Origin: a virus
Strand: one strand, 5' to 3'
IMG/VR virus record: IMGVR_UViG_3300007535_000024
Location: 1 to 20,374 of that record
Length of the DNA stretch: 20,374 bases
Shown here one piece after another: positions 1 to 20,374 of the stretch (positions are counted from its first letter, which is position 1; each line of letters starts with the position of its first letter). The position numbers and the translations under genes are program-made. The notes below the pieces were generated by a model. That model was not told the origin of the DNA, did not search any database, and saw only the letters and a program-made list of their open reading frames with translations.

Positions 1-633
1 TTAATTTATTTCATGGAAATTTTTAATATCATCATTTTCTGTTAGATCACAAGCTTTTACCCATCCTCTATTAGTAGTAAGAAATTCATGATCATATGTA
101 CATCTTATAATAAGACCATCTTCTGTTTCTATTTCTATTTTTTCTTTGTTTTTTGTATTTGGCATATTTGTAACCAAAACAGGATTTGTATATTTAAAAT
201 TTTTGTTTTTTTCATCATATGTTAATACTTTATCATCTACAGTTATTTCTGATATTTTCTTATTACCTGTTGATGTTTTAATTAATGTGTTCTTATCAAA
301 ACAACCACACATCAAAATATATAAAATTTCACTAAAAGCAGCAGGATCATCCATAATAATACTGGCACAATTGTATCCACAAATATTTTCTCTATCAAGA
401 GCTTTTCCTGCTGTCCACAATGATCGCATAGATGGCATTAATTCAAAATTTAATATTGAATCTATAACATCTTTAAATGATTGTTTATCTTCTTCAGGCA
501 CCCTTTCAATCATAAAATCACCGTATCTTTTTACGGTTTCTTCCCATTTTTCTCTTCTTTTTAAAGAATCAATCCATTTAGAATAAGTTCTTACATATAT
601 TAATTCTTCAAAAGATGTCATAAAATTATTCAT
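1..633 (-). CDS. nrdJ: NrdJ N-terminal fragment fused to the N-half of a split intein
   Basis: Residues 1-110 match the start of adenosylcobalamin-dependent (class II) ribonucleotide reductase, which makes deoxyribonucleotides. They include the N-terminal RTYSKW and GYNCAS segments and end at ILYILMCG, where intact homologues continue TGVGF. Instead, Cys111 begins an intein: block A is CFDKNTLIKT, and block B is T179-Y-D-H182 followed by FLTTNRG. The frame stops with TAA at positions 1-3, 100 residues after Cys111. That is the usual size of a split-intein N-fragment, with no C-terminal intein blocks. The remaining intein and reductase are presumably encoded beyond position 1. ATG 633 is chosen because GGAG lies 5 nt upstream; a TTG at 657 in the same frame falls inside the preceding terminator hairpin. 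The fragment alone lacks the catalytic barrel, so it should be active only after trans-splicing. Identification as NrdJ is confident; the split state depends on sequence outside the window. Confidence 0.85.
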   Translation of the reverse strand: MNNFMTSFEELIYVRTYSKWIDSLKRREKWEETVKRYGDFMIERVPEEDKQSFKDVIDSILNFELMPSMRSLWTAGKALDRENICGYNCASIIMDDPAAFSEILYILMCGCFDKNTLIKTSTGNKKISEITVDDKVLTYDEKNKNFKYTNPVLVTNMPNTKNKEKIEIETEDGLIIRCTYDHEFLTTNRGWVKACDLTENDDIKNFHEIN

Positions 634-655
634 ATATGCTCCGTTATTTTTAGAC

Positions 656-690
656 AAATATAGCCCTTTATGAATTAAAGGGCTATATTT
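656..690 (-). terminator. Hairpin terminator upstream of nrdJ
   Basis: A perfect 15-bp inverted repeat (656-670 with 676-690) encloses a 5-nt loop. The stem has a GC core (GCCC/GGGC) flanked by A and T runs on both sides, so it could act in both directions. It ends the transcript of the small basic gene at 698-1027 and separates it from nrdJ. Confidence 0.8.
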
Positions 691-697
691 GCATTTG

Positions 698-3386: not shown

Positions 3387-4268
3387 TTATATCCCCTTTT
3401 TTAACCATTTATTAATTTTCTGAATTTCTAGATAATTATCCAATAAAATTTTTTCTTCGTTTACTATTAATAAATCTATACCTTTTTGATCACATTGATA
3501 AGCTTTTATCTTATCAATTTGTTTCTTTTTAGATAAAGAATGCCAATAAGTACCATTATATTCAATAGCTTTGTTTAAATCAGGTATCCATATATCTAGT
3601 TCTAGATTTTTGCCTGTTAAAGGATTAATTATTTGACTTCTATCATTCCTTATAATATCATAACCAAGTGATTCAATATAATCTTGTAACTCTATTTCTT
3701 GTTTACTAGCTGTCGATTCATTCCAGCAAATAGGACAGCGAGCACCTTTTTTAAAACAATAAAATCTTACTTTATATTCATGGCATTCTGGACATTTAAT
3801 TTTTAATTTAGAGCTTGCATTTTTATAAGTTTTTGACAGTAATCGATACCCTTCTATTTTTTCTATAAAGGATTTAACATATTCATATGTTAATTTTATA
3901 CCACCATTGCATTTAGCACATCTTTGGCCACGATAAAAATTACCATATGTTACTTTATATTCATGTCCTTTATCACACTCAATTAATAATCTTGTATTAG
4001 CATTTTTATAAACGCTTGATATTAATTTATAATTAAAAGATTCTATATATTTTTTAACATGATCGTAATTTAATTTTTGATTATTCATATAACAGATAGG
4101 ACATCTTCTACCAAGCTTAAAATTACTATATGTTGTTTTATATTCATGTTCTTCCGGGCATTTAATTTTTAATTTAGAGCGGCCATTTTTATAAGTATTT
4201 GATAGTAATTGATAACCTTCTTTTTCTATATAGTCTTTAACATATAAATATGTTAACTTTGTGCTCAT
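3387..4268 (-). CDS. Homing endonuclease 1: three zinc-binding repeats plus Vsr-like nuclease
   Basis: 293 residues. Three tandem ~60-residue repeats (about 4-64, 65-123, 124-183) share the pattern KLxYxYVKxYIExxxYxLL, then a Cys-x3/4-His pair and a CxxC pair (CPIC, CAKC, CPIC), so each probably binds one zinc and contacts DNA. The C-terminal domain (about 190-293) has the Vsr/EDxHD endonuclease signature: a Glu in the first helix (IELQDYIE), LELDIWIP, AIEYNGTYWH and a following IDKIKAYQCDQKG. The family makes double-strand breaks that spread its own gene. The start overlaps the upstream stop as ATGA and has no strong ribosome site, suggesting translational coupling. Both flanking genes look complete, so here it is intercalated rather than splitting a gene. 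Confidence 0.85.
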   Translation of the reverse strand: MSTKLTYLYVKDYIEKEGYQLLSNTYKNGRSKLKIKCPEEHEYKTTYSNFKLGRRCPICYMNNQKLNYDHVKKYIESFNYKLISSVYKNANTRLLIECDKGHEYKVTYGNFYRGQRCAKCNGGIKLTYEYVKSFIEKIEGYRLLSKTYKNASSKLKIKCPECHEYKVRFYCFKKGARCPICWNESTASKQEIELQDYIESLGYDIIRNDRSQIINPLTGKNLELDIWIPDLNKAIEYNGTYWHSLSKKKQIDKIKAYQCDQKGIDLLIVNEEKILLDNYLEIQKINKWLKKGI

Positions 4269-6081: not shown

Positions 6082-7125
6082 TTACATATTTTTTAATTCA
6101 TTTAAAAGATCTTCATCATTCATATCATCATCAGATTTATCATCAGATTTATCATCAGATTTATCATCAGATTTATCATCGGATTTATCATCGGATTTAT
6201 CATCAGATTTATCATCAGATTTATCATCGGATTTATCATCAGATTTATCATCGGATTTATCATCAGATTTATCATCAGATTTATCATCCTTAGGGGCACC
6301 ATCCTTTTTAGGTTTCATATTAGTATCCCCTGTCCGTCTTTCAAATTCTTCTTCAATGTCTTCCCAAAACCCTTCAACCTGAAGCAATTTTTTATGTTCA
6401 TCCCATGTTAGTTTTTTACTTTCAAGATATTCTTCAAGAGATACAGTTTTTTCCATTAGTTTTTCAATACCTTCTTCTGTATCAGCAATAGCTGAAGGCT
6501 TTCTAGAAAAAATAGTATCAGAATAATCAGGCCATGTTTTGCCATTTTTATCAGGTTTTTTAGCTTTAATTTTAACAATCAAATCATATCCATTTTCAGG
6601 ATCAAATACAGCCATTCCATATCCTTCAGCTTTATCAGTAATTTCGTTTTTGATTTTTGATTCCACTGTAGCAGGAAATTCATAAAGTTTTACTTTACCG
6701 GATGATTTATACTCATCATCTTTATCATCATCTCTTGGATCATTAACAATGAGAGTATTACATACAAATTTATCTTGTCTTTTATATTTAAAAGCCAGTT
6801 TTTTATCTTCTTTATTACCTTTATAAAGCATTTGATTCAATGCACACCATGGGCAATAATTATCCATTGCTTCTGATTTAGGACAGTGAATAAAATGATG
6901 TTTTTCATCAATAACAAAATAATGAAACATATATTTTGTATAAAAATTACTATCAGGATCAGGTAGAAGTCTGATTCTATACTCTTTTGCTTTATCTACA
7001 GTTCCCATAGTAGGATTTTTCCATTTATCATAAAAACCACCACCACTGTTTTGTTCCAATGGTGCTTCGTTGGCTTTTTTATTTACAAAATCCTTAAATT
7101 TGTCAGTCTTTATCCATTTGCTCAT
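6082..7125 (-). CDS. 32: gp32-like single-stranded DNA-binding protein with (DDKS)13 tail
   Basis: 347 residues. Coats single-stranded DNA at the fork and recruits replication and recombination partners. The zinc ligands H68-x12-C81-x9-C91-x2-C94 reproduce exactly the spacing of T4 gp32 (H64, C77, C87, C90). Residues 1-20 are basic, as in the cooperativity domain. The acidic C-terminal end, DDDMNDEDLLNELKNM, resembles the T4 gp32 tail that binds partner proteins. Unusually, thirteen perfect DDKS repeats (280-331) lie between core and tail. ATG 7125 is chosen because GGAGGGT lies directly upstream; a GTG at 7137 is inside that ribosome site. A promoter at 7172-7200 and terminator at 6016-6060 make it an independent, probably strongly expressed unit. 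Confidence 0.93.
   Translation of the reverse strand: MSKWIKTDKFKDFVNKKANEAPLEQNSGGGFYDKWKNPTMGTVDKAKEYRIRLLPDPDSNFYTKYMFHYFVIDEKHHFIHCPKSEAMDNYCPWCALNQMLYKGNKEDKKLAFKYKRQDKFVCNTLIVNDPRDDDKDDEYKSSGKVKLYEFPATVESKIKNEITDKAEGYGMAVFDPENGYDLIVKIKAKKPDKNGKTWPDYSDTIFSRKPSAIADTEEGIEKLMEKTVSLEEYLESKKLTWDEHKKLLQVEGFWEDIEEEFERRTGDTNMKPKKDGAPKDDKSDDKSDDKSDDKSDDKSDDKSDDKSDDKSDDKSDDKSDDKSDDKSDDKSDDDMNDEDLLNELKNM
6133..6289 (-). repeat. 12-nt tandem repeat coding (DDKS)13
   Basis: Thirteen consecutive 12-nt units (minus-strand GATGATAAATCT or ...TCC) in frame inside the gp32-like gene. Units differ only at the third base of the Ser codon (TCT or TCC), so the array is close to perfect and probably changes copy number by slippage without breaking the frame. 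Confidence 0.95.
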
Positions 7126-8517: not shown

Positions 8518-8594
8518 TGGCGGGCCATGATGGATTCGAACCACCAACTACTAGATTTGGAGTCTAGCGTTCTTCCAATTAGAACTAATGACCC
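8518..8594 (-). tRNA. tRNA-Trp (CCA)
   Basis: 77 nt including an encoded CCA. Acceptor GGGTCAT pairs with ATGGCCC (one G-U). The anticodon arm CTAGA-CTCCAAA-TCTAG places CCA at 34-36. The T arm GGTGG-TTCGAAT-CCATC is normal and the discriminator base is G. It lies between the genes at 8603-8884 and 7898-8503, 24 nt upstream of a coding start. Confidence 0.93.
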
Positions 8595-8602
8595 TTGAAT
8601 TC

Positions 8603-8884
8603 TTATATCAAAGAAATATTCCATTCATCACATAACATTTCTTTTAATTCACCTTCTTCCGTATCATCAAGATATATATCTATTTCTTCCAATGAAGAAG
8701 AAATAATAGATTCTAATACACTTTTTATAGAATCTTGTTTATTCATTTCTTTTTCTAGCTCTGTTAAATCATCAATATCATCAAAGCTTTCTATTTCAGA
8801 AATCATATTATTGATATCATCTTCATCATATTTATATATAATATGATCATAAGCTGTTTCTATATATTCACCCTCATAGCTCAT
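8603..8884 (-). CDS. Small acidic protein of unknown function
   Basis: 93 residues, strongly acidic (many Asp and Glu, few basic residues), probably helical, with EYIETAYDHIIYKYDEDD near the N-terminus. No family was recognised. Small acidic phage proteins often mimic DNA or bind host enzymes, but nothing specific supports this here. ATG 8884 is chosen because GGGAG is 8 nt upstream; an in-frame GTG at 8893 lies inside that site. It sits inside the tRNA cluster between tRNA-Glu and tRNA-Trp. TATAAATA at 8913-8920, about 30 nt before the start, could be a late promoter. Confidence 0.7.
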   Translation of the reverse strand: MSYEGEYIETAYDHIIYKYDEDDINNMISEIESFDDIDDLTELEKEMNKQDSIKSVLESIISSSLEEIDIYLDDTEEGELKEMLCDEWNISLI

Positions 8885-8912
8885 GATATTCACTCCCTTT
8901 TATCAATTATTT

Positions 8913-8920
8913 TATTTATA
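8913..8920 (-). promoter_or_regulatory. Possible T4-type late promoter core TATAAATA
   Basis: Exact match to the T4 late -10 sequence, 29 nt upstream of ATG 8884, which is the usual distance. In DNA this AT-rich several chance matches per strand are expected, so position is the main support. Confidence 0.3.
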
Positions 8921-8936
8921 AAGAAGAATAGAAAAG

Positions 8937-9012
8937 TGGTGATCCTACCGGGGCTCGAACCCGGAACATAAGATTGAAAGTCTTATATCTTAACCATTTA
9001 GACGATAGGATC
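8937..9012 (-). tRNA. tRNA-Glu (UUC)
   Basis: 76 nt with encoded CCA. Acceptor GATCCTA pairs perfectly with TAGGATC and the discriminator is A. Anticodon arm TAAGA-CTTTCAA-TCTTA gives TTC. T arm CCGGG-TTCGAGC-CCCGG is perfect. Confidence 0.95.
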
Positions 9013-9017
9013 ATTTT

Positions 9018-9093
9018 TGGTACTCCGGGAGGGAATCGAACCCCCAACTGATCGATTATGAGTCGATGGCTCTTCCAATTGAACTACCGGAGT
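9018..9093 (-). tRNA. tRNA with CAU anticodon (elongator Met or Ile2)
   Basis: 76 nt with encoded CCA. Acceptor ACTCCGG/CCGGAGT, discriminator A. Anticodon arm ATCGA-CTCATAA-TCGAT. The first pair is A-T, so it lacks the initiator mismatch. CAU tRNAs may be elongator Met or Ile2 with lysidine at C34. Because a tRNA-Ile(UAU) is also encoded, Met is somewhat more likely. Confidence 0.9.
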
Positions 9094-9096
9094 ATA

Positions 9097-9171
9097 TGGT
9101 GGGAATAATCGGACTTGAACCAATAACCTATGCCTTATCAAGACAGTGCTCTACCATTGAGCTATATTCCC
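9097..9171 (-). tRNA. tRNA-Ile (GAU)
   Basis: 75 nt with encoded CCA. Acceptor GGGAATA/TATTCCC, discriminator A. Anticodon loop TTGATAA gives GAT. The anticodon stem CTGTC/GGCAT has a C-U mismatch at the top and one G-U. It is separated from the next tRNA by only 3 nt, so the two are clearly cut from one transcript. Confidence 0.9.
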
Positions 9172-9326
9172 TTTTCTATTTAATTTTTCTACCTTTTATC
9201 CATCAAGAATTTTCTCACCCTTTTAATAAAATTAAATAGTGCATTTTTAAACCTTACTCCTCAAAAATGTTTAGTCCTTTATATAATATTTATATAAAGT
9301 ATCGAACATTTTTAAGAAGCAAGAAG
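9172..9326 (-). other. 155-nt spacer in the tRNA cluster with hairpin and weak promoter
   Basis: No convincing reading frame. It holds a long imperfect hairpin (9263-9313): an outer 9-bp arm AAAAATGTT/AACATTTTT and an inner 9-bp arm CTTTATATA/TATATAAAG separated by an internal loop. This may be a terminator or processing site after tRNA-Asn. Nearer tRNA-Ile, TTGATG (9206-9201), 18 nt and TAAATA (9182-9177) form a weak promoter candidate. Confidence 0.4.
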
Positions 9327-9402
9327 TGGCTCCTAGTGAAGGACTTGAACCTTCAACTTCCTGGTTAACAGCCAGGCGTTCTGCCAATTGAACTAACTAG
9401 GA
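9327..9402 (-). tRNA. tRNA-Asn (GUU)
   Basis: 76 nt with encoded CCA. Acceptor TCCTAGT/ACTAGGA, discriminator G as usual for Asn. Anticodon arm CCTGG-CTGTTAA-CCAGG gives GTT. T arm GAAGG-TTCAAGT-CCTTC is perfect. Confidence 0.95.
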
Positions 9403-9410
9403 TTATTCTA

Positions 9411-9487
9411 TGGTTGGATCCATGGGGCTTAAACCCATAATCTACTGATTAAAAGTCAGTTGCATTATCCATTTATGCTAGGATCCA
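9411..9487 (-). tRNA. tRNA-Lys (UUU)
   Basis: 77 nt with encoded CCA. Acceptor TGGATCC/GGATCCA, discriminator A. Anticodon arm ACTGA-CTTTTAA-TCAGT gives TTT. Two oddities: the acceptor begins with U1-A72, and the T loop is TTTAAGC, with U in place of the nearly universal C56, which would turn the G19-C56 tertiary pair into a wobble. It is still foldable throughout. Confidence 0.88.
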
Positions 9488-9494
9488 ATATATT

Positions 9495-9570
9495 TGGTAG
9501 TCCTGGATGGAATTGAACCATCACTCACACAATTATAAGTTGTGCGCTTTACCATTTAAGCTACAGGACT
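9495..9570 (-). tRNA. tRNA-Ile (UAU)
   Basis: 76 nt with encoded CCA. Acceptor AGTCCTG/CAGGACT, discriminator A. Anticodon arm CACAA-CTTATAA-TTGTG places TAT at 34-36, which reads AUA directly. Most bacteria read AUA with a lysidine-modified CAU tRNA instead, so this isoacceptor is uncommon. AUA is very frequent in the genes of this window. Confidence 0.9.
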
Positions 9571-9578
9571 ATATTTTT

Positions 9579-9668
9579 TGGTGAAGGGTGATGGAATTGA
9601 ACCACTCGTCAACCACCTAGATTGTTTTACGACCAGAGTTTTACAGACTCCTACCAGGAACACCCCCC
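9579..9668 (-). tRNA. tRNA-Tyr (GUA), irregular class II fold
   Basis: 90 nt with encoded CCA and the long variable region of class II tRNAs. Acceptor GGGGGGT pairs with ACCCTTC through two G-U pairs; discriminator A. Loop CTGTAAA gives GTA. The D arm is unusually short (TCC-TGGTA-GGA) and its right side competes with the anticodon stem. The first T-stem pair is mismatched. GTAAAAC occurs in the anticodon loop and again in the variable region. It may be functional but degenerate. Confidence 0.7.
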
Positions 9669-9671
9669 ATG

Positions 9672-9718
9672 TTTTTAACTTATAATATCATAATCTTGTT
9701 TCTTTGTCAATGTTTTTA
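9672..9718 (-). repeat. Direct repeat copy 1 (promoter-bearing)
   Basis: This 47-nt segment recurs at 9800-9846 with a single difference (C9708 versus T9836, inside the -35). The two copies are 128 nt apart and flank the tRNA-Ala gene, implying a duplication of a promoter-plus-tRNA unit. Confidence 0.9.
9682..9710 (-). promoter_or_regulatory. Strong extended -10 promoter before tRNA-Tyr
   Basis: Minus strand TTGACA (9710-9705), 17 nt, TG-A-TATTAT (-10 at 9687-9682). It has a perfect -35, ideal spacing and an extended -10. Transcription would start about 7 nt before the tRNA-Tyr 5' end. Confidence 0.85.
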
Positions 9719-9720
9719 TT

Positions 9721-9794
9721 TGGTGGAGACTAAGAGAATCGAACTCTTATTTCTGACTTGCAAAACCAGTGTAATCCCGTTATACTAAGCCCCC
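9721..9794 (-). tRNA. tRNA-Ala (UGC)
   Basis: 74 nt with encoded CCA. Acceptor GGGGGCT pairs with AGTCTCC, including a G3-U70 wobble, the identity element for alanyl-tRNA synthetase. Anticodon loop TTTGCAA gives TGC. The anticodon stem has two G-T pairs next to the loop. Discriminator A. Confidence 0.9.
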
Positions 9795-9799
9795 TCATA

Positions 9800-9846
9800 T
9801 TTTTAACTTATAATATCATAATCTTGTTTCTTTGTTAATGTTTTTA
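9800..9846 (-). repeat. Direct repeat copy 2 (promoter-bearing)
   Basis: Second copy of the repeat at 9672-9718, 46 of 47 positions identical, located between tRNA-Gly and tRNA-Ala. Confidence 0.9.
9810..9838 (-). promoter_or_regulatory. Extended -10 promoter before tRNA-Ala
   Basis: Minus strand TTAACA (9838-9833), 17 nt, TG-A-TATTAT (9815-9810). It is identical to the tRNA-Tyr promoter except for one base in the -35, which should make it somewhat weaker. The start would fall about 9 nt before tRNA-Ala. Confidence 0.8.
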
Positions 9847-9849
9847 ATT

Positions 9850-9923
9850 TGGAGAGGATAAAGGGAATCGAACCCTTATCTACTGGGTGGAAACCAGTTA
9901 TATTACCGTTATACTATACCCTC
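9850..9923 (-). tRNA. tRNA-Gly (UCC)
   Basis: 74 nt with encoded CCA. Acceptor GAGGGTA/TATCCTC (one G-U), discriminator U as in bacterial tRNA-Gly. Anticodon arm ACTGG-TTTCCAC-CCAGT gives TCC. It is the first tRNA after the hairpin at 9932-9967. Confidence 0.93.
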
Positions 9924-9931
9924 TAAAACAA

Positions 9932-9967
9932 AAAAGGTTGAAAAATCTTTTTGATCTTCAACCTTTT
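9932..9967 (-). terminator. Hairpin terminator before the tRNA-Gly gene
   Basis: An 11-bp inverted repeat (9932-9942 with 9957-9967, core AGGTTGAA/TTCAACCT) with a 14-nt loop that can add ATC/GAT pairs. On the minus strand it is followed by a T run. It would stop transcripts of the small genes upstream just before tRNA-Gly. Confidence 0.7.
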
Positions 9968-9999
9968 ATAATTTTATTCATTATTTAAAAGATATCAGA

Positions 10000-10083
10000 T
10001 CATAGAATTATTCCTTTATAATTGCCCGCAATTATAGCATTGCTTTTTTCATAATTAATAATATATCTTTTTTGTTTTTTCAT
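10000..10083 (-). CDS. Possible 27-residue protein
   Basis: ATG 10083 to TGA 10000-10002. It encodes a basic N-terminus (MKKQKRYIINYEK) followed by a short neutral end. TAGGAAA lies about 9 nt upstream, which is acceptable but not strong. It lies 44 nt downstream of the 30-residue gene at 10128-10220 and upstream of the terminator at 9932-9967. No family is known; it may be a chance frame. Confidence 0.4.
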   Translation of the reverse strand: MKKQKRYIINYEKSNAIIAGNYKGIIL

Positions 10084-10127
10084 TGTAAGTGTTTTCCTAA
10101 ATTTAACTTTTAAATAATGAATATATT

Positions 10128-10220
10128 TTATTTACCTCTAGATGATTTACAACCACCTCTGCCTTTATTACTTCTATTACCTTTTCCAGATCCGTCTTTT
10201 TTTGGTGTTCCTTTTGGCAT
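10128..10220 (-). CDS. 30-residue Gly/Lys/Arg-rich small protein
   Basis: ATG 10220 with AAAGGAAT upstream. The protein begins MPKGTPKKDGSGKG and ends with GRGGCKSSRGK: one Cys, no hydrophobic core, very basic. Short proteins of this composition are, as far as I recall, frequent in large phage genomes, but their role is not known to me. A TATAAATA element lies at 10240-10247, about 20 nt before the start. It is transcribed toward tRNA-Gly and sits between two tRNA genes. Confidence 0.65.
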   Translation of the reverse strand: MPKGTPKKDGSGKGNRSNKGRGGCKSSRGK

Positions 10221-10239
10221 AATATTTATTCCTTTTTGT

Positions 10240-10247
10240 TATTTATA
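10240..10247 (-). promoter_or_regulatory. Possible T4-type late promoter core TATAAATA
   Basis: Exact T4 late -10 sequence between tRNA-Met and the small gene at 10128-10220, 19 nt upstream of its ATG. It is close for a promoter and a chance match is possible at this base composition. Confidence 0.3.
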
Positions 10248-10274
10248 TTCTATAATAAATATTTTTATAAATTT

Positions 10275-10351
10275 TGGGAGCGGGGGAGGGATTCGAACCC
10301 TCGACCACAAGGATATGAGCCTTGTAAGCTAACCACTGCTATCACCCCGCT
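10275..10351 (-). tRNA. tRNA with CAU anticodon, initiator-like Met
   Basis: 77 nt with encoded CCA. Acceptor AGCGGGG/CCCCGCT, discriminator C. Anticodon arm CAAGG-CTCATAT-CCTTG. The acceptor and the GGTCG and GGTTC segments closely resemble E. coli initiator tRNA. However, the C1-A72 mismatch is replaced by a weak A-U pair, and only two of the three G-C pairs next to the anticodon loop are present. The D stem is short. It could be an initiator or an elongator. Its 5' end abuts the MazG-like stop codon. Confidence 0.85.
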
Positions 10352-11739: not shown

Positions 11740-12816
11740 TTATTTAGGCAATTTTAAATTTAACAACCCTACTAATTTATTATAATATTTTGTTAAGTTA
11801 TCGTTTGTTTCCCAGAACAACCCATTTTTAAGAGTATTATAATCGCTTTCCCATATTTTTTCAAGCTTTTTATTTTTTAAAGTATCTTCAATCATTGATA
11901 TCATTTCTTCATCGGTTTTAGATCTCATTTTTAAATTTTTATAAGGATATATATCAGTATATATTGCAGGTATACCAGCTGCTGTATATTCTTTAGCTTT
12001 TATATTACTTTTACATTCGTTAAAAAGGTTTTGTTCTAAAGGAGCTATGCCTAGATCAATATTTAATGATTTCAAATAATTAGGATAATTAAAAATATCA
12101 ACCCATTTATGTTTAATAATTTTGTCATTATTTTTTAATTCTAAAGGGCACCCACCAATAATATTCCATTCATAATCATTAGATGTCTTAATAATAAAAT
12201 TTATTAATTTATTACTAAAGTCACCGCCTTTGATATTCTTATCATTTGAAAAATGGTTACCTGATCCTGCCCATGCTATTTTGAATTTTTTATTAAAATT
12301 ATCTTTCCACTGTGGTTCACCCCATAAAAATTTTGGTAAATGATTTTGTTGTACTTCAATTTTGTTATTATATTGTGAATAAATCTCTTTAAGTTTATTT
12401 GTTGAAACAATCATAGCATCAACTTCTTTCATTATCTCAATAGCTGTTTTAGAGTATCTATTATAATATTTACTAGCAAAATTCCATTTTGGAATATCAC
12501 TAAGGAGATCATCTATCTCATATAGCAATGGAACATTTGCTTGTTTTCTATAATTTTTTTTAATATGTTTTATTATTTTCAATTGTTGTTCTGTTGCTGA
12601 TCTTTGAAACATTATAAAAAGCTGATCACTATAAAAATTAATATCATTAATAAAATGTAGTCCATAAGAAGGCATAAAATTTACTCTATTATCATGTTTA
12701 TATTGAGATAATAACATAGATGGAAAAATGCATCTTATATATCCACAGCCGGCCATGTCTGCTAGATAGATATGATGCATAATAGTTGATGGTGTTTTAA
12801 TTATTTTTTTACCCAT
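11740..12816 (-). CDS. Glycosyltransferase, GT-B fold (GT4-like)
   Basis: 358 residues. Transfers a sugar from an activated donor; the acceptor is unknown. The N-terminal ADMAGCGYIRCIFPSMLLS (19-37) is the start typical of phage GT4-like enzymes. The C-terminal half has FKIAWAGSGNHF and WNIIGGCPLE, then LGIAPLEQNLFNECKSNIK with the donor-binding EYTAAGIPAIYT (about 288-299). Phage glycosyltransferases may modify phage DNA, virion proteins or host surface sugars; DNA modification would be notable beside the methyltransferase upstream, but cannot be shown. The start overlaps the end of homing endonuclease 2 by 16 nt, and its ribosome site (AAAGGAAA) lies in that gene's last codons. The N-terminus looks complete, so it was not split. 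Confidence 0.85.
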   Translation of the reverse strand: MGKKIIKTPSTIMHHIYLADMAGCGYIRCIFPSMLLSQYKHDNRVNFMPSYGLHFINDINFYSDQLFIMFQRSATEQQLKIIKHIKKNYRKQANVPLLYEIDDLLSDIPKWNFASKYYNRYSKTAIEIMKEVDAMIVSTNKLKEIYSQYNNKIEVQQNHLPKFLWGEPQWKDNFNKKFKIAWAGSGNHFSNDKNIKGGDFSNKLINFIIKTSNDYEWNIIGGCPLELKNNDKIIKHKWVDIFNYPNYLKSLNIDLGIAPLEQNLFNECKSNIKAKEYTAAGIPAIYTDIYPYKNLKMRSKTDEEMISMIEDTLKNKKLEKIWESDYNTLKNGLFWETNDNLTKYYNKLVGLLNLKLPK

Positions 12817-13853
12817 TTTTTAATAATTTCCTTTTCTATTTTATTACAATTTATCCAATTATAATCTTTAACTATTAATAAGTCAATACCTTTTTGTTTG
12901 CATTGATTTACTTTTATTTTATCTCTTTTTATCATATTTAATTTATTATGCCAATAAGTACCATTATATTCAATAGCTTTCTTTTTATCAGGTATCCATA
13001 TATCCAGTTCAAGATTTTTGCCTGTTAAAGGATTAATAATCTGTGTTCTATCATTTCTTATTATATTATATCCTAGTGATTCAATGTAATTTTGTAATTC
13101 TTTTTCTGTTTTACTAGATTTAGATTCATACCAGCATATAGGACATCTATGTTTACTATTTTTAAATGCTGCAAATGATACTTCATACTCATGTCCTATA
13201 GGGCATTTTAATAATAATTTTGTACAAACATTTTTATAATTATCAGATAATAATTTATAGCCTTCTTTTTCTATATAATTTTTAACATATTCATATGTAT
13301 ACTTAATATTATTATTAATACATAATGGGCATGAACACTTTAAAAATAATTTAAAAGTTGTTTTATATTCATGCCCTATAGGGCATTTTATTAATAATTT
13401 TGTATGATTATTTTTATATTCTTTAGATAATAATTGATAACCTTCTTTTTCTATAAAATCTTTAACATATTCATATGTATACTTAATATTATCTGCACAA
13501 TATGGACATCTATGTTTGCTATTTTTAAATGTTGAAAATGATATTTTATATTCATGCCCTATAGGGCATTTTAATAATAATTTTTGTTTATTATTTTTAT
13601 ACTTTTTAGATAATAATTTATAGTCTTCTTTTTCAATATAATCTTTAACATAATTATATGATAATTTTTTATTACCTATGCATATAGGACATTTTGCACC
13701 TTGTTGAAAATTATTAAACCTTGCATAGTATTCATGTCCTTTAGAACATTTTATTAATAATTTTGTATGAGTATTAACATAATCATCAGATAATAATTGA
13801 TAACCTTTTTTTTTAATATACTCTTTTACATAATTATATGTTAATTTTTTCAT
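12801..13853 (-). CDS. Homing endonuclease 2: four zinc-binding repeats plus Vsr-like nuclease
   Basis: 350 residues, same family as the genes at 3387-4268 and 19669-20374, with the most repeats. Repeats cover about 1-61, 62-122, 123-182 and 183-248; each has KxxYxYVKxYIxKxxYxLL, a C-x3-H pair (CPIGHEY) and a closing CxxC or CxC-type pair. The third repeat is shortened near its Cys pair (KCSCPLC). The nuclease domain (249-350) has KELQNYIE, LELDIWIP, AIEYNGTYWH and RDKIKVNQCKQKG, with all EDxHD residues present, so it looks active. No strong ribosome site is visible before ATG 13853. It is inserted between two intact genes. Confidence 0.85.
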   Translation of the reverse strand: MKKLTYNYVKEYIKKKGYQLLSDDYVNTHTKLLIKCSKGHEYYARFNNFQQGAKCPICIGNKKLSYNYVKDYIEKEDYKLLSKKYKNNKQKLLLKCPIGHEYKISFSTFKNSKHRCPYCADNIKYTYEYVKDFIEKEGYQLLSKEYKNNHTKLLIKCPIGHEYKTTFKLFLKCSCPLCINNNIKYTYEYVKNYIEKEGYKLLSDNYKNVCTKLLLKCPIGHEYEVSFAAFKNSKHRCPICWYESKSSKTEKELQNYIESLGYNIIRNDRTQIINPLTGKNLELDIWIPDKKKAIEYNGTYWHNKLNMIKRDKIKVNQCKQKGIDLLIVKDYNWINCNKIEKEIIKKWVKK

Positions 13854-18114: not shown

Positions 18115-18190
18115 TGGAACCCCTGGTAGGAGTCAAACCTACGACATTCACATTAGAAGTGTGATGTTCTATTCACTGAACTACAGGGGC
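18115..18190 (-). tRNA. tRNA-Arg (UCU)
   Basis: 76 nt with encoded CCA. Acceptor GCCCCTG/CAGGGGT, with an unusual G1-U72 wobble; discriminator U. Anticodon arm TCACA-CTTCTAA-TGTGA gives TCT, which reads AGA, the favoured Arg codon in AT-rich genes such as these. Confidence 0.92.
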
Positions 18191-18200
18191 TTATTTTGTG

Positions 18201-18276
18201 TGGAGCCTCCTACAGGACTTGAACCTGTGATCTTTAGTTTACAAAACTATTGCTTTGCCAACTAAGTTAAAGAGGC
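18201..18276 (-). tRNA. tRNA-Thr (UGU)
   Basis: 76 nt with encoded CCA. Acceptor GCCTCTT/AGGAGGC (one U-G), discriminator U. Anticodon loop TTTGTAA gives TGT; the outermost anticodon-stem pair is an A-A mismatch. T arm ACAGG-TTCAAGT-CCTGT is perfect. It is 9 nt downstream of the tmRNA 3' end. Confidence 0.9.
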
Positions 18277-18285
18277 TTAAATTTT

Positions 18286-18633
18286 TGGTGGAGATGGCGA
18301 GAGTTGAACTCGCGTCCAAAGATGATTATTAAACAATATTTACATACATAGTTCAGATAAAAATCAATACAGTATACTAATCTGAACAATTTCTACTGTA
18401 TAGTTAACCTAATTTATTTTATTATCATTTATTAGGTATTAATGATAACTATCTTATATAATATTATATCATATGAAATGTATAAGAGACATTTTCATAT
18501 GACAGTAGCTATGCTGCTACAGCGTAGTTATAATCGTCTGCAATTATAATTAAAATTTATCAGTTTAACGAGTTAATAAAGCTCGGTATGAAATCATTCA
18601 ACATACAATCTTTGTCGATGCCATTTCATCCCC
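18286..18633 (-). ncRNA. ssrA: tmRNA with tag peptide ADDYNYAVAA
   Basis: 348 nt including CCA. Rescues ribosomes stalled on broken mRNA and tags the unfinished protein for proteolysis. The 5' end GGGGATG pairs with 3' CATCTCC (G3-U70, the alanine identity pair). The tRNA-like end has the typical GGACGCGAGTTCAACTCTCG T arm. The tag frame runs 18541-18509: resume codon GCA, then ADDYNYAVAA and TAG, close to the E. coli tag ANDENYALAA. GAGC/GCTC-type pairing just 5' of the tag fits pseudoknot 1, and several AT-rich helices follow. It lies between tRNA-Pro and tRNA-Thr and is probably transcribed with them from 18739-18767. Confidence 0.96.
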
Positions 18634-18650
18634 AAATTTTAAAAGATCTA

Positions 18651-18727
18651 TGGTCTAGATGGGAGGATTCGAACCTCCGACATCTTGGATCCAAACCAAG
18701 CGCCCTGCCAGACTGGGCCACATCTAG
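18651..18727 (-). tRNA. tRNA-Pro (UGG)
   Basis: 77 nt with encoded CCA. Acceptor CTAGATG/CATCTAG with the C1-G72 pair typical of bacterial tRNA-Pro; discriminator A. Anticodon arm CTTGG-TTTGGAT-CCAAG gives TGG. It is the first RNA after the promoter at 18739-18767. Confidence 0.95.
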
Positions 18728-18772: not shown

Positions 18773-19672
18773 TTATCCAAAAAACATATCAAAAGTGTTA
18801 TTTCTTTTTAATATGTTTTCTCTATTTTGTGGTTCAAGTAAAATTTTTATCTTCTTAATTAAAAATTTTTCAATCATTTTTTCATAGTCAGGTTCAATAC
18901 CGTTTTTAGTAAATTCTTTTGGCCATTTTACATATGAAACCACATCAATATTATAAGGATTAGATTTAACATATACAACTTTAGCCTTGTTTCCTTCTAT
19001 CAATGATTCATAATAACCATCAATATTAAACAATTTTAATAATTTATGATAACTAGCTGCACCTTTTATATGATAAGGTGTTCCTTTTATTGGTTCACCA
19101 TCAACAATATATTTACCAAGTTTATTAATATTAATATTTGATGATATATCCTCTGGCTCTTCTTTTTTAATTAAATCTTTGCACTCATCAACAAACTGAA
19201 TAATTTCTTTGTCTGTTTTATCTTCAAGAATAAATCTTAACACTTTTTTAAGAATCACTTTAAAAGCAGTAGGTGTTTCTGACCTAATAATTTCAAGACC
19301 TGTTACATCAATCTCATCTTTATCCACGCCTTCATCATTGACTACGTGAAAGCCATATTTCTTTTTTTTAATAAAAAGAGCCGCTTTACATACAATTTCT
19401 TGCTTAAATACTATAGCAAAATCATCCTTTTCTACTGTTGAATTATACGTTCCTTGTTGTAATTCTTCAAAGCAAGATTTATCAACATATTCTTCTATTT
19501 TTCTTGAAAGTTCTAAAATATAATTGATTTTTTGTTTATCAGGTAATATTTTCCATTTTTCAGGATCAACACCCGAATCCAATAAAAATTCTTCCATTTT
19601 CATAAACAGAGAATCAGTATCAATATAAGCAATATAATCTTTATTACTTATATCTTTATCTCCTTTTTTCAT
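18773..19672 (-). CDS. 43: C-terminal part of a split family B DNA polymerase (gp43B-like)
   Basis: 299 residues. It begins 12-13 residues before palm motif C (YIAYIDTDS; catalytic D18 and D20) and runs through the rest of the palm and thumb. KKKKYGF (about 118-124) and GLEIIRSETPTAFK (KxY- and thumb-like motifs) follow, ending TFDMFFG, close to the clamp-binding FDMFDF end of T4/RB69 gp43. The exonuclease domain, motif A and motif B are absent and must be encoded upstream, beyond the homing endonuclease. The start is a true gene start: AAGGGAT lies 7 nt before ATG 19672, which overlaps the endonuclease stop (ATGA). No intein C-terminal motif (HN) precedes the polymerase sequence, so the parts must associate without splicing. 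Split gp43 genes with endonuclease insertions are known in Aeromonas T4-like phages. Confidence 0.9.
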   Translation of the reverse strand: MKKGDKDISNKDYIAYIDTDSLFMKMEEFLLDSGVDPEKWKILPDKQKINYILELSRKIEEYVDKSCFEELQQGTYNSTVEKDDFAIVFKQEIVCKAALFIKKKKYGFHVVNDEGVDKDEIDVTGLEIIRSETPTAFKVILKKVLRFILEDKTDKEIIQFVDECKDLIKKEEPEDISSNININKLGKYIVDGEPIKGTPYHIKGAASYHKLLKLFNIDGYYESLIEGNKAKVVYVKSNPYNIDVVSYVKWPKEFTKNGIEPDYEKMIEKFLIKKIKILLEPQNRENILKRNNTFDMFFG

Positions 19673-20374
19673 TTTATTATCCCTTTTAAAAAATTCTCAA
19701 TTAAATTTAATTCAAACTTTTTATTATTAACCCAATTATATTCATTTACTATTAATAAGTCAATGCCTTTTTCTTTGCATTGATCTATTTTTATCTGATC
19801 CTTCTTTATTTTATCTAATTTTTTATGCCAATAAGTGCCATTATACTCAATAGCTTTATTAAGTTCTGGTATCCACACATCTAATTCAAGATTTTTGCCT
19901 GTTAAAGGATTAATTATTTGAGTTCTGTCATTCCTTATTATATTATAACCAAATGCTTCAATATAATCTTGTATCTCTTTCTCTTGTTTGCTGGATTTAG
20001 ATTCATACCAGCATATAGGACATCTGTAATTTTGATTTTTAAAACTATTAAAACTCATTTTAAATTTATGATATTTAGGGCAAGATAATAATAATTTATG
20101 ATTAGAATTTGTATAATTATTTGATAGTAATTGATAGTCTTCTTTTTCTATATAGTCTTTAACATACTTATATGTATATTTTTTAATTTTTGATAGTTTT
20201 AATTTATTGCACTCAAAACATCTTTGACCTTGTTGAAAATTATTAAATTTAACTTTATATTCATGCCCTATAGGACATTTCACTAATAATTTTATATGAG
20301 CATTAACATAGTCACTAGATAATAATTGATAGCCTTCTTTCTCTATAAAATTTTTAATATAATCATAATTAAAA
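19669..20374 (-). CDS. Homing endonuclease 3 (5' part beyond window) inside the DNA polymerase gene
   Basis: At least 234 residues; the frame stays open to the window edge and position 20374 is already inside a zinc-binding repeat (NYDYIKNFIEKEGYQLLSS), so the real start lies outside. Two repeats are visible, with CPIGHEY...CFEC and CPKYHKF...CPIC as metal sites, followed by the nuclease domain with KEIQDYIE, LELDVWIP, AIEYNGTYWH and KDQIKIDQCKEKG. The nuclease core is almost identical to the copies at 3387-4268 and 12801-13853. Its stop overlaps the start of the polymerase C-terminal gene, so this copy divides the polymerase gene, presumably cutting near the conserved motif C sequence of uninterrupted alleles. 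Confidence 0.88.
   Translation of the reverse strand, partial: FNYDYIKNFIEKEGYQLLSSDYVNAHIKLLVKCPIGHEYKVKFNNFQQGQRCFECNKLKLSKIKKYTYKYVKDYIEKEDYQLLSNNYTNSNHKLLLSCPKYHKFKMSFNSFKNQNYRCPICWYESKSSKQEKEIQDYIEAFGYNIIRNDRTQIINPLTGKNLELDVWIPELNKAIEYNGTYWHKKLDKIKKDQIKIDQCKEKGIDLLIVNEYNWVNNKKFELNLIENFLKGIIK

Follow-up and report, generated by a model that had tools for sequence, protein, structure and literature searches.

The fastest protein-ligation tools derive from natural split inteins. In 2009 Dassa et al. reportedly described phage genes that are fractured by split inteins and accompanied by endonucleases. Among class II ribonucleotide reductases (RNRs) the closest described system is NrdJ-1, which in its native gene lies at NPC/SEI (PMC13123727; throughout, the slash in a junction marks the insertion point). 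A 2009 survey listed two intein-interrupted nrdJ genes, as far as it is cited in PMC3653736. How does a further nrdJ locus compare with these? We examined a single virus record of 20,374 bp and 26% GC, the only contig in IMG/VR entry IMGVR_UViG_3300007535_000024, hereafter called the window. We conclude that its nrdJ is very probably a fractured gene whose halves are joined by a natural trans-splicing intein at MCG/TGIGF.

The nrdJ-N open reading frame (ORF; table 1) of the window begins as a reductase and ends as an intein. Residues 1–110, the N-extein, match Pfam RNR_Alpha (E=2e-10) and a PHROG ribonucleotide reductase family (E=4e-25). The RNR_Alpha domain and the continuation GYNC...ILM(C/N)G/TG(V/I)GFS identify the enzyme as class II, RTPR type (TIGR02505). 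At the place where an intact class II homologue, L004, reads ILYILLCGTGVGYSVERQ, the codon of the intein Cys1 (303–301) lies directly 3′ of the ...ILYILMCG codons of the window. Residues 111–210 form the N-terminal intein fragment (IntN). At 30.0 bits it exceeds the cut-off of 24.5 for NCBIfam TIGR01445 intein_Nterm (E=8e-7), and it matches Pfam Intein_splicing with E=9e-9, 0.1 bit below the gathering score. Of the inteins with solved structures, NrdJ-1 and the AceL NrdHF intein come closest to it. Cys1 and the block B TxxH (T69 and H72, positions 99–88), which define the N-fragment of a class 1 split intein, are both present in the ORF; C1, T69, H72 and NRGWV are invariant in an alignment of IntN relatives.

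Where is the other half? The stop codon of IntN is exactly the end of the contig, so that the sequence beyond it is unreadable in the window. A search of IMG/VR returned a second contig, L003 (8,903 bp), which is 99.7% identical to the window across 6,252 bp, with 19 substitutions. Within the nrdJ-N ORF the sole amino-acid difference is T122I. In L003 the stop, ending at 8584, is followed by an 88-bp spacer and then, in another frame, by the ATG (8673) of a separate ORF, which reads MKITKIKKIKDNSEYWDMSIPETHNYVLSNGCIVHN/TGIGFSVERQFVNKMPSLPDKFNEIDDTIVFADSKLGWAEG and is cut at the contig end. The first 36 residues of this ORF are a C-terminal intein fragment (IntC) with blocks F and G, ending in GCIVHN. 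TGIGFSVERQ follows, and the reductase resumes exactly at the residue lacking from the N-half. The junction, ...YWDMSIPETHNYVLSNGCIVHN/TGIGF, carries the His-Asn and the Thr +1 of a class 1 C-fragment, and all the catalytic splicing residues are kept in both halves, Thr being the +1 nucleophile. IntC is a translation unit of its own, preceded by its own AGGA-ATG downstream of a hairpin in the spacer. From the separate frames and the IntC/TGIGF sequence we conclude that this is a split intein flanked by the exteins MCG and TGIGF, its +1 residue being Thr.

The preliminary description, made from the window alone, had placed the break after MCG, where a TGVGF-like continuation was expected, and had read what follows as a 100-residue N-intein with blocks A and B, then a stop, in the layout of a natural split intein. 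It predicted a C-terminal part with blocks F and G, an HN end and a TGVGF-like continuation. The extein families, the L004 homologue, the TIGR01445 match and the L003 ORF bear all of this out. The two outcomes it had named as contrary, one contiguous frame and no C-terminal part anywhere, are contradicted by L003, where the halves lie in different frames and the C-part stands past the same stop. Its further suggestion, that the pair may be a new fast-splicing one, is a possibility.

Could the two ORFs really be a single one, a contiguous mini-intein that faulty sequencing or assembly has broken? The IntN stop of the window falls exactly at a contig end, where assemblies are weakest, and a contiguous relative, L102, is known. 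However, L003 is a separate assembly with 19 single-nucleotide differences, and it has the identical stop, which is therefore real. Its spacer contains a 15-bp hairpin, its IntC lies in the other frame behind its own ATG, and no one-base change could join its halves. Several relatives, moreover, are split at the same place. Unless both assemblies share one error, L003 rules out a frameshift or assembly error as the source of the stop, and we regard the contiguous gene as scarcely credible.

The intein of the window resembles NrdJ-1 in its host gene, a class II RNR, in Cys1 and in the place at which the intein is split; both have an IntN of about 100 residues and an IntC of about 36–40. NrdJ-1 is also the closest match in the PDB by sequence and by fold. 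The insertion points are different, as the preliminary description had suspected: NrdJ-1 lies at NPC/SEI with Ser at +1, whereas the present intein lies at MCG/TGIGF with Thr at +1. That the latter is an allele of NrdJ-1 is ruled out by its site, by its Thr +1 and by the position of the NPC-site inteins in another clade. A split intein in nrdJ is an arrangement already known in kind. Ours departs from NrdJ-1 in its site, in its +1 residue and in its sequence. The MCG/TG(V/I)GF insertion site is likely to be new for natural split inteins.

Among named phages the closest intein half, at 47% identity, is that of the UvsW split intein of Salmonella phage S16 (gp114/gp115), where the gene is likewise fractured and IntN and IntC are each encoded by a gene of their own. 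Its host protein is another one, its +1 residue is Cys, and a gene, gp114.1, lies between its halves. The annotation of the S16 locus (L110, table 1) shows separate helicase proteins only, although UvsW is fractured there by the split intein. The fractured genes of Dassa et al. share with ours the order of IntN gene, stop and IntC gene in a phage gene of nucleotide metabolism; unlike them, L003 has between its halves a relic-like hairpin and no endonuclease.

We collected relatives from viral contigs by profile searches and by matching the DNA to a pattern that encodes HN-TG(V/I)G(F/Y)S. Inteins at the same site, MCG/TG(V/I)GF (site a), occur in L093/L096/L107 and partial copies thereof, L105, L112, L092, L125/L137 and L102. 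Their IntN sequences are 60% (L112), 54% (L093), about 55% (L092) and 44% (L105) identical to that of the window. The divergent lineages L093, L105, L112, L092 and L125 are all split, and L102 is the only contiguous copy. What lies between the halves varies; in most relatives it is a GIY-YIG homing endonuclease. A free-standing GIY-YIG/NUMOD3 endonuclease gene is found in L093, L105 and L112, and all that L125 holds is an open frame of 64 codons that matches no family. In the 88-bp spacer of L003 there is neither an endonuclease gene nor any ORF. The endonuclease that the preliminary description had thought might lie between the halves is thus missing from L003 and present in its relatives. 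L092 has between its intein halves a 72-residue C-terminal remnant resembling TnpB/Cas12f (table 1).

A second site (site b), two codons upstream (ILM/CGTGVGF, with Cys at +1), is occupied in L012, L113, L114, L139 and L141. The IntN of L012, L113 and L141 is a fusion with a GIY-YIG-like stretch, the end of which IntC either abuts or overlaps; L114 has a GIY-YIG-like frame as a separate ORF after IntN, and L139 a short spacer only. In the tree the inteins of sites a and b form one clade (support 97/94) that includes the concatenated halves of the window and L003, while those inserted at KP(S/A)G/T or at the site of NrdJ-1 fall outside. Site a and site b inteins are the same lineage. An approximately unbiased test of the two groupings of the registers rejected neither (p 0.42 and 0.24), and we dropped the propositions that each register is a separate clade or that a register shift is proven. 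In bacterial and archaeal genomes the site-a IntC profile found no relative and the IntN profile found distant relatives only.

Some of these genes are interrupted more than once. The nrdJ of L092, L125/L137 and L139 has two or three intein sites (the MCG region, NPC/C and KPAG/T), with separate N- and C-intein ORFs where both are seen; the reductase would thus come from up to four polypeptides. An uncurated count over the collected loci L131–L208 gives 59 distinct IntN–IntC pairs, of which some 50 are split. In uncultivated phages such inteins seem to be common, and the genes that carry them include helicase-like and ligase-like ones, among others.

What is the hairpin in the spacer? At the start of the L003 spacer stands a stem of 15 bp (−16.6 kcal/mol; z −5.1 against shuffles), with TATAAAT at the loop end of the stem. 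The whole near clade (L003, L093, L099, L107, L105 and L112) has a hairpin in this position, with TATAAAT inside. Among L003, L112, L093, L107 and L105, compensatory changes affect 6 of 14 stem pairs, against at most one in slid-partner controls. For I-TevI and mobE, such a hairpin hides the ribosome site in early transcripts, and late transcripts start inside it (PMC2988022). The stem-loop of the relatives, with a late-type promoter in its loop directly upstream of an endonuclease gene, is like that of I-TevI, I-TevIII and mobE of T4-like phages. L112 and L093 have all four features of the type: hairpin, promoter motif in the loop, sequestered ribosome site (AGGAG in the 3′ arm) and an endonuclease ORF, its ATG immediately after the arm. 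L003, in contrast, has the first two only; its arm reads AGGAT, and the endonuclease gene is gone.

The simplest reading of L003 is that the endonuclease was lost while the split and the control hairpin stayed. The intein would once have been mobile and split around a GIY-YIG endonuclease gene; the hairpin would have hidden the ribosome site of that gene early in infection, with a late-type promoter in the loop; and loss of the gene in the lineage of the window and L003 would have left the split and a relic hairpin. Alternatively the hairpin may be no relic of an endonuclease, but a terminator or a control element that times synthesis of the C-half, which is compatible with a split intein. It still folds and retains TATAAAT, a terminator-type hairpin also stands just upstream of nrdJ in the window genome, and in phage 44RR gene 43 is divided in two by an ‘intercistronic untranslated sequence’ (PMC2988022). 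Yet homology, with covariation, links the stem to the hairpin that precedes the endonuclease genes in L112 and L093. The ribosome site of IntC, moreover, is downstream of the stem and not sequestered, and there is no U-run after the stem; we consider this alternative doubtful. That the L003 hairpin is still active is possible but unsupported. It is decidedly unlikely that the C-half has come under the control of the retained hairpin and its late-type promoter, which would time trans-splicing assembly in infection. Were it so, the off-switch of a selfish element would have been turned into a switch for a phage enzyme.

How would the halves become an enzyme? As read from the motifs, gene 1 would give NrdJ residues 1–110 fused to the 100-residue IntN, and gene 2, seen in L003, the 36-residue IntC fused to the remaining NrdJ. 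The expressed halves would associate and trans-splice by the class 1 route, which is expected because all the catalytic residues are present in both halves. A thioester at Cys1 would be transferred to Thr +1, the last Asn of IntC would cyclise, and a peptide bond between MCG and TGIGF would yield an uninterrupted, presumably active reductase. Might the intein instead be a decayed remnant that does not splice, NrdJ being inactive or its pieces working unjoined? The endonuclease has been lost, and a two-piece reductase is active without splicing in the genes-in-pieces NrdA of phage Aeh1 (PMC2988022). But a relic should decay in a genome of 26% GC, and here the splicing residues are all intact in both halves, the strains differing in the ORF by T122I only. 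Unspliced halves, furthermore, would bear 100 and 36 foreign residues beside a highly conserved stretch of the enzyme. We judge a decayed remnant very improbable.

Several observations do weigh against a trans-spliced nrdJ with the history given above. The C-half is seen in a near-identical strain, outside the window, and L003 stops 41 residues into the C-extein; the rest of NrdJ, including two other common fracture sites, falls past its end, and an exact search for a contig extending it returned just L003 itself. The L105 hairpin has a partly different stem and aligns poorly. Nor is TATAAATA enriched in the AT-rich window (15 observed against 12.6 expected); we dropped the idea of late promoters enriched there, and, the promoter claim being weak when taken alone, that reading rests on the conserved place of the motif in the hairpin.

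Has the element moved? L093 and L107 belong to different phages, with N-exteins 76.5% and C-exteins 79.3% identical at the DNA level, whereas their IntN, spacer, endonuclease and IntC are 98–99% identical. In the first 120 bp of the C-extein the identity climbs to 90–95%. With the intein region at 98–99% and its flank at 90–95%, the pattern is what recent homing with co-conversion predicts.

L102 has the same intein (98–99%) as a single ORF, with a third C-extein, 71–74% identical. Compared with L093 it lacks about 780 bp, which begin shortly ahead of the IntN stop and end shortly ahead of IntC; its junction contains bases absent from L093. The predicted fold of this intein (147 residues; mean confidence score, pLDDT, 91) has NrdJ-1 as its closest PDB match (8UBS, TM score 0.77) and matches other inteins too. 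L102 may be a chimeric contig: it is known from one contig, which begins exactly at intein residue 1, and an exact search for the fusion junction matched L102 alone. In the tree it is nested among split copies, and re-fusion by deletion is therefore the best reading; on this comparison, L102 is apparently a split intein re-fused by the loss of some 780 bp.

Table 1. Coordinates of the nrdJ features and of other elements mentioned in the text.
Feature	Contig	Position	Strand	Basis or remark
nrdJ-N ORF	window	1–633	−	ATG at 633, TAA at 3–1
N-extein, class II ribonucleotide reductase (NrdJ/RTPR type), 110 aa, ends ILYILMCG	window	304–633	−	RNR_Alpha, TIGR02505, PHROG 367
IntN, 100 residues, CFDKNTLIKT...CTYDHEFLTTNRGWVKACDLTENDDIKNFHEIN	window	4–303	−	TIGR01445, Intein_splicing
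TAA stop of IntN, also final three bases of contig	window	1–3	−	same stop in L003 at 8582–8584
GGAG Shine-Dalgarno of nrdJ-N	window	639–642	−	sequence
Perfect 16-bp inverted repeat upstream of nrdJ-N	window	655–691	.	probably terminator of preceding gene
Contiguous mini-intein	L102 (IMGVR_UViG_3300008627_000843)	1–417		oriented
UvsW helicase of phage S16	L110	104626–107352		
TnpB/Cas12f-like remnant	L092	8069–8287	−	72 aa
DKSD tandem repeat of gp32-like protein	window	6145–6252		
tmRNA	window	18286–18633	−	tag ADDYNYAVAA
tRNA genes	window	8518–10351 and 18115–18727		13 genes
Zinc-finger endonuclease genes	window	3387–4268, 12801–13853 and 19669–20373	−	three genes
Family B DNA polymerase region	window	18773–20373	−	polymerase ORF at 18773–19672

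The source of the window is a T4-like virus of bacteria, with genes for a gp32-like single-stranded DNA-binding protein, a T4-type RNase H, part of a family B polymerase, a dUTPase, an RNA ligase and an NAD-dependent DNA ligase. The gp32-like protein has a DKSD tandem repeat as its C-terminus, where L003 is 36 bp (three units) shorter. The phage encodes a transfer-messenger RNA (tmRNA), with tRNA genes beside it. Three related endonuclease genes combine treble-clef zinc-finger repeats with a Vsr/MTES_1575-like nuclease end and resemble the ‘Hef’ homing endonucleases of Campylobacter phages. The family B DNA polymerase is likewise fractured. Its ORF begins 14 residues ahead of the YIDTDS motif, at about residue 540 of the 831-residue enzyme of Synechococcus phage B23, and is overlapped by 4 bp by a Hef-like zinc-finger endonuclease ORF that extends off the contig. 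A C-intein is not present there, and the polymerase therefore looks like genes-in-pieces without splicing.

The locus offers a complete new pair with a Thr +1 junction and, with it, at least five further divergent pairs, inserted at this site or its neighbour, that are ready for testing. It also presents one element at one site in several states: split with an endonuclease, split after loss of the endonuclease, and apparently contiguous again. With these relatives, how inteins become split, and whether they do so reversibly, becomes directly testable.
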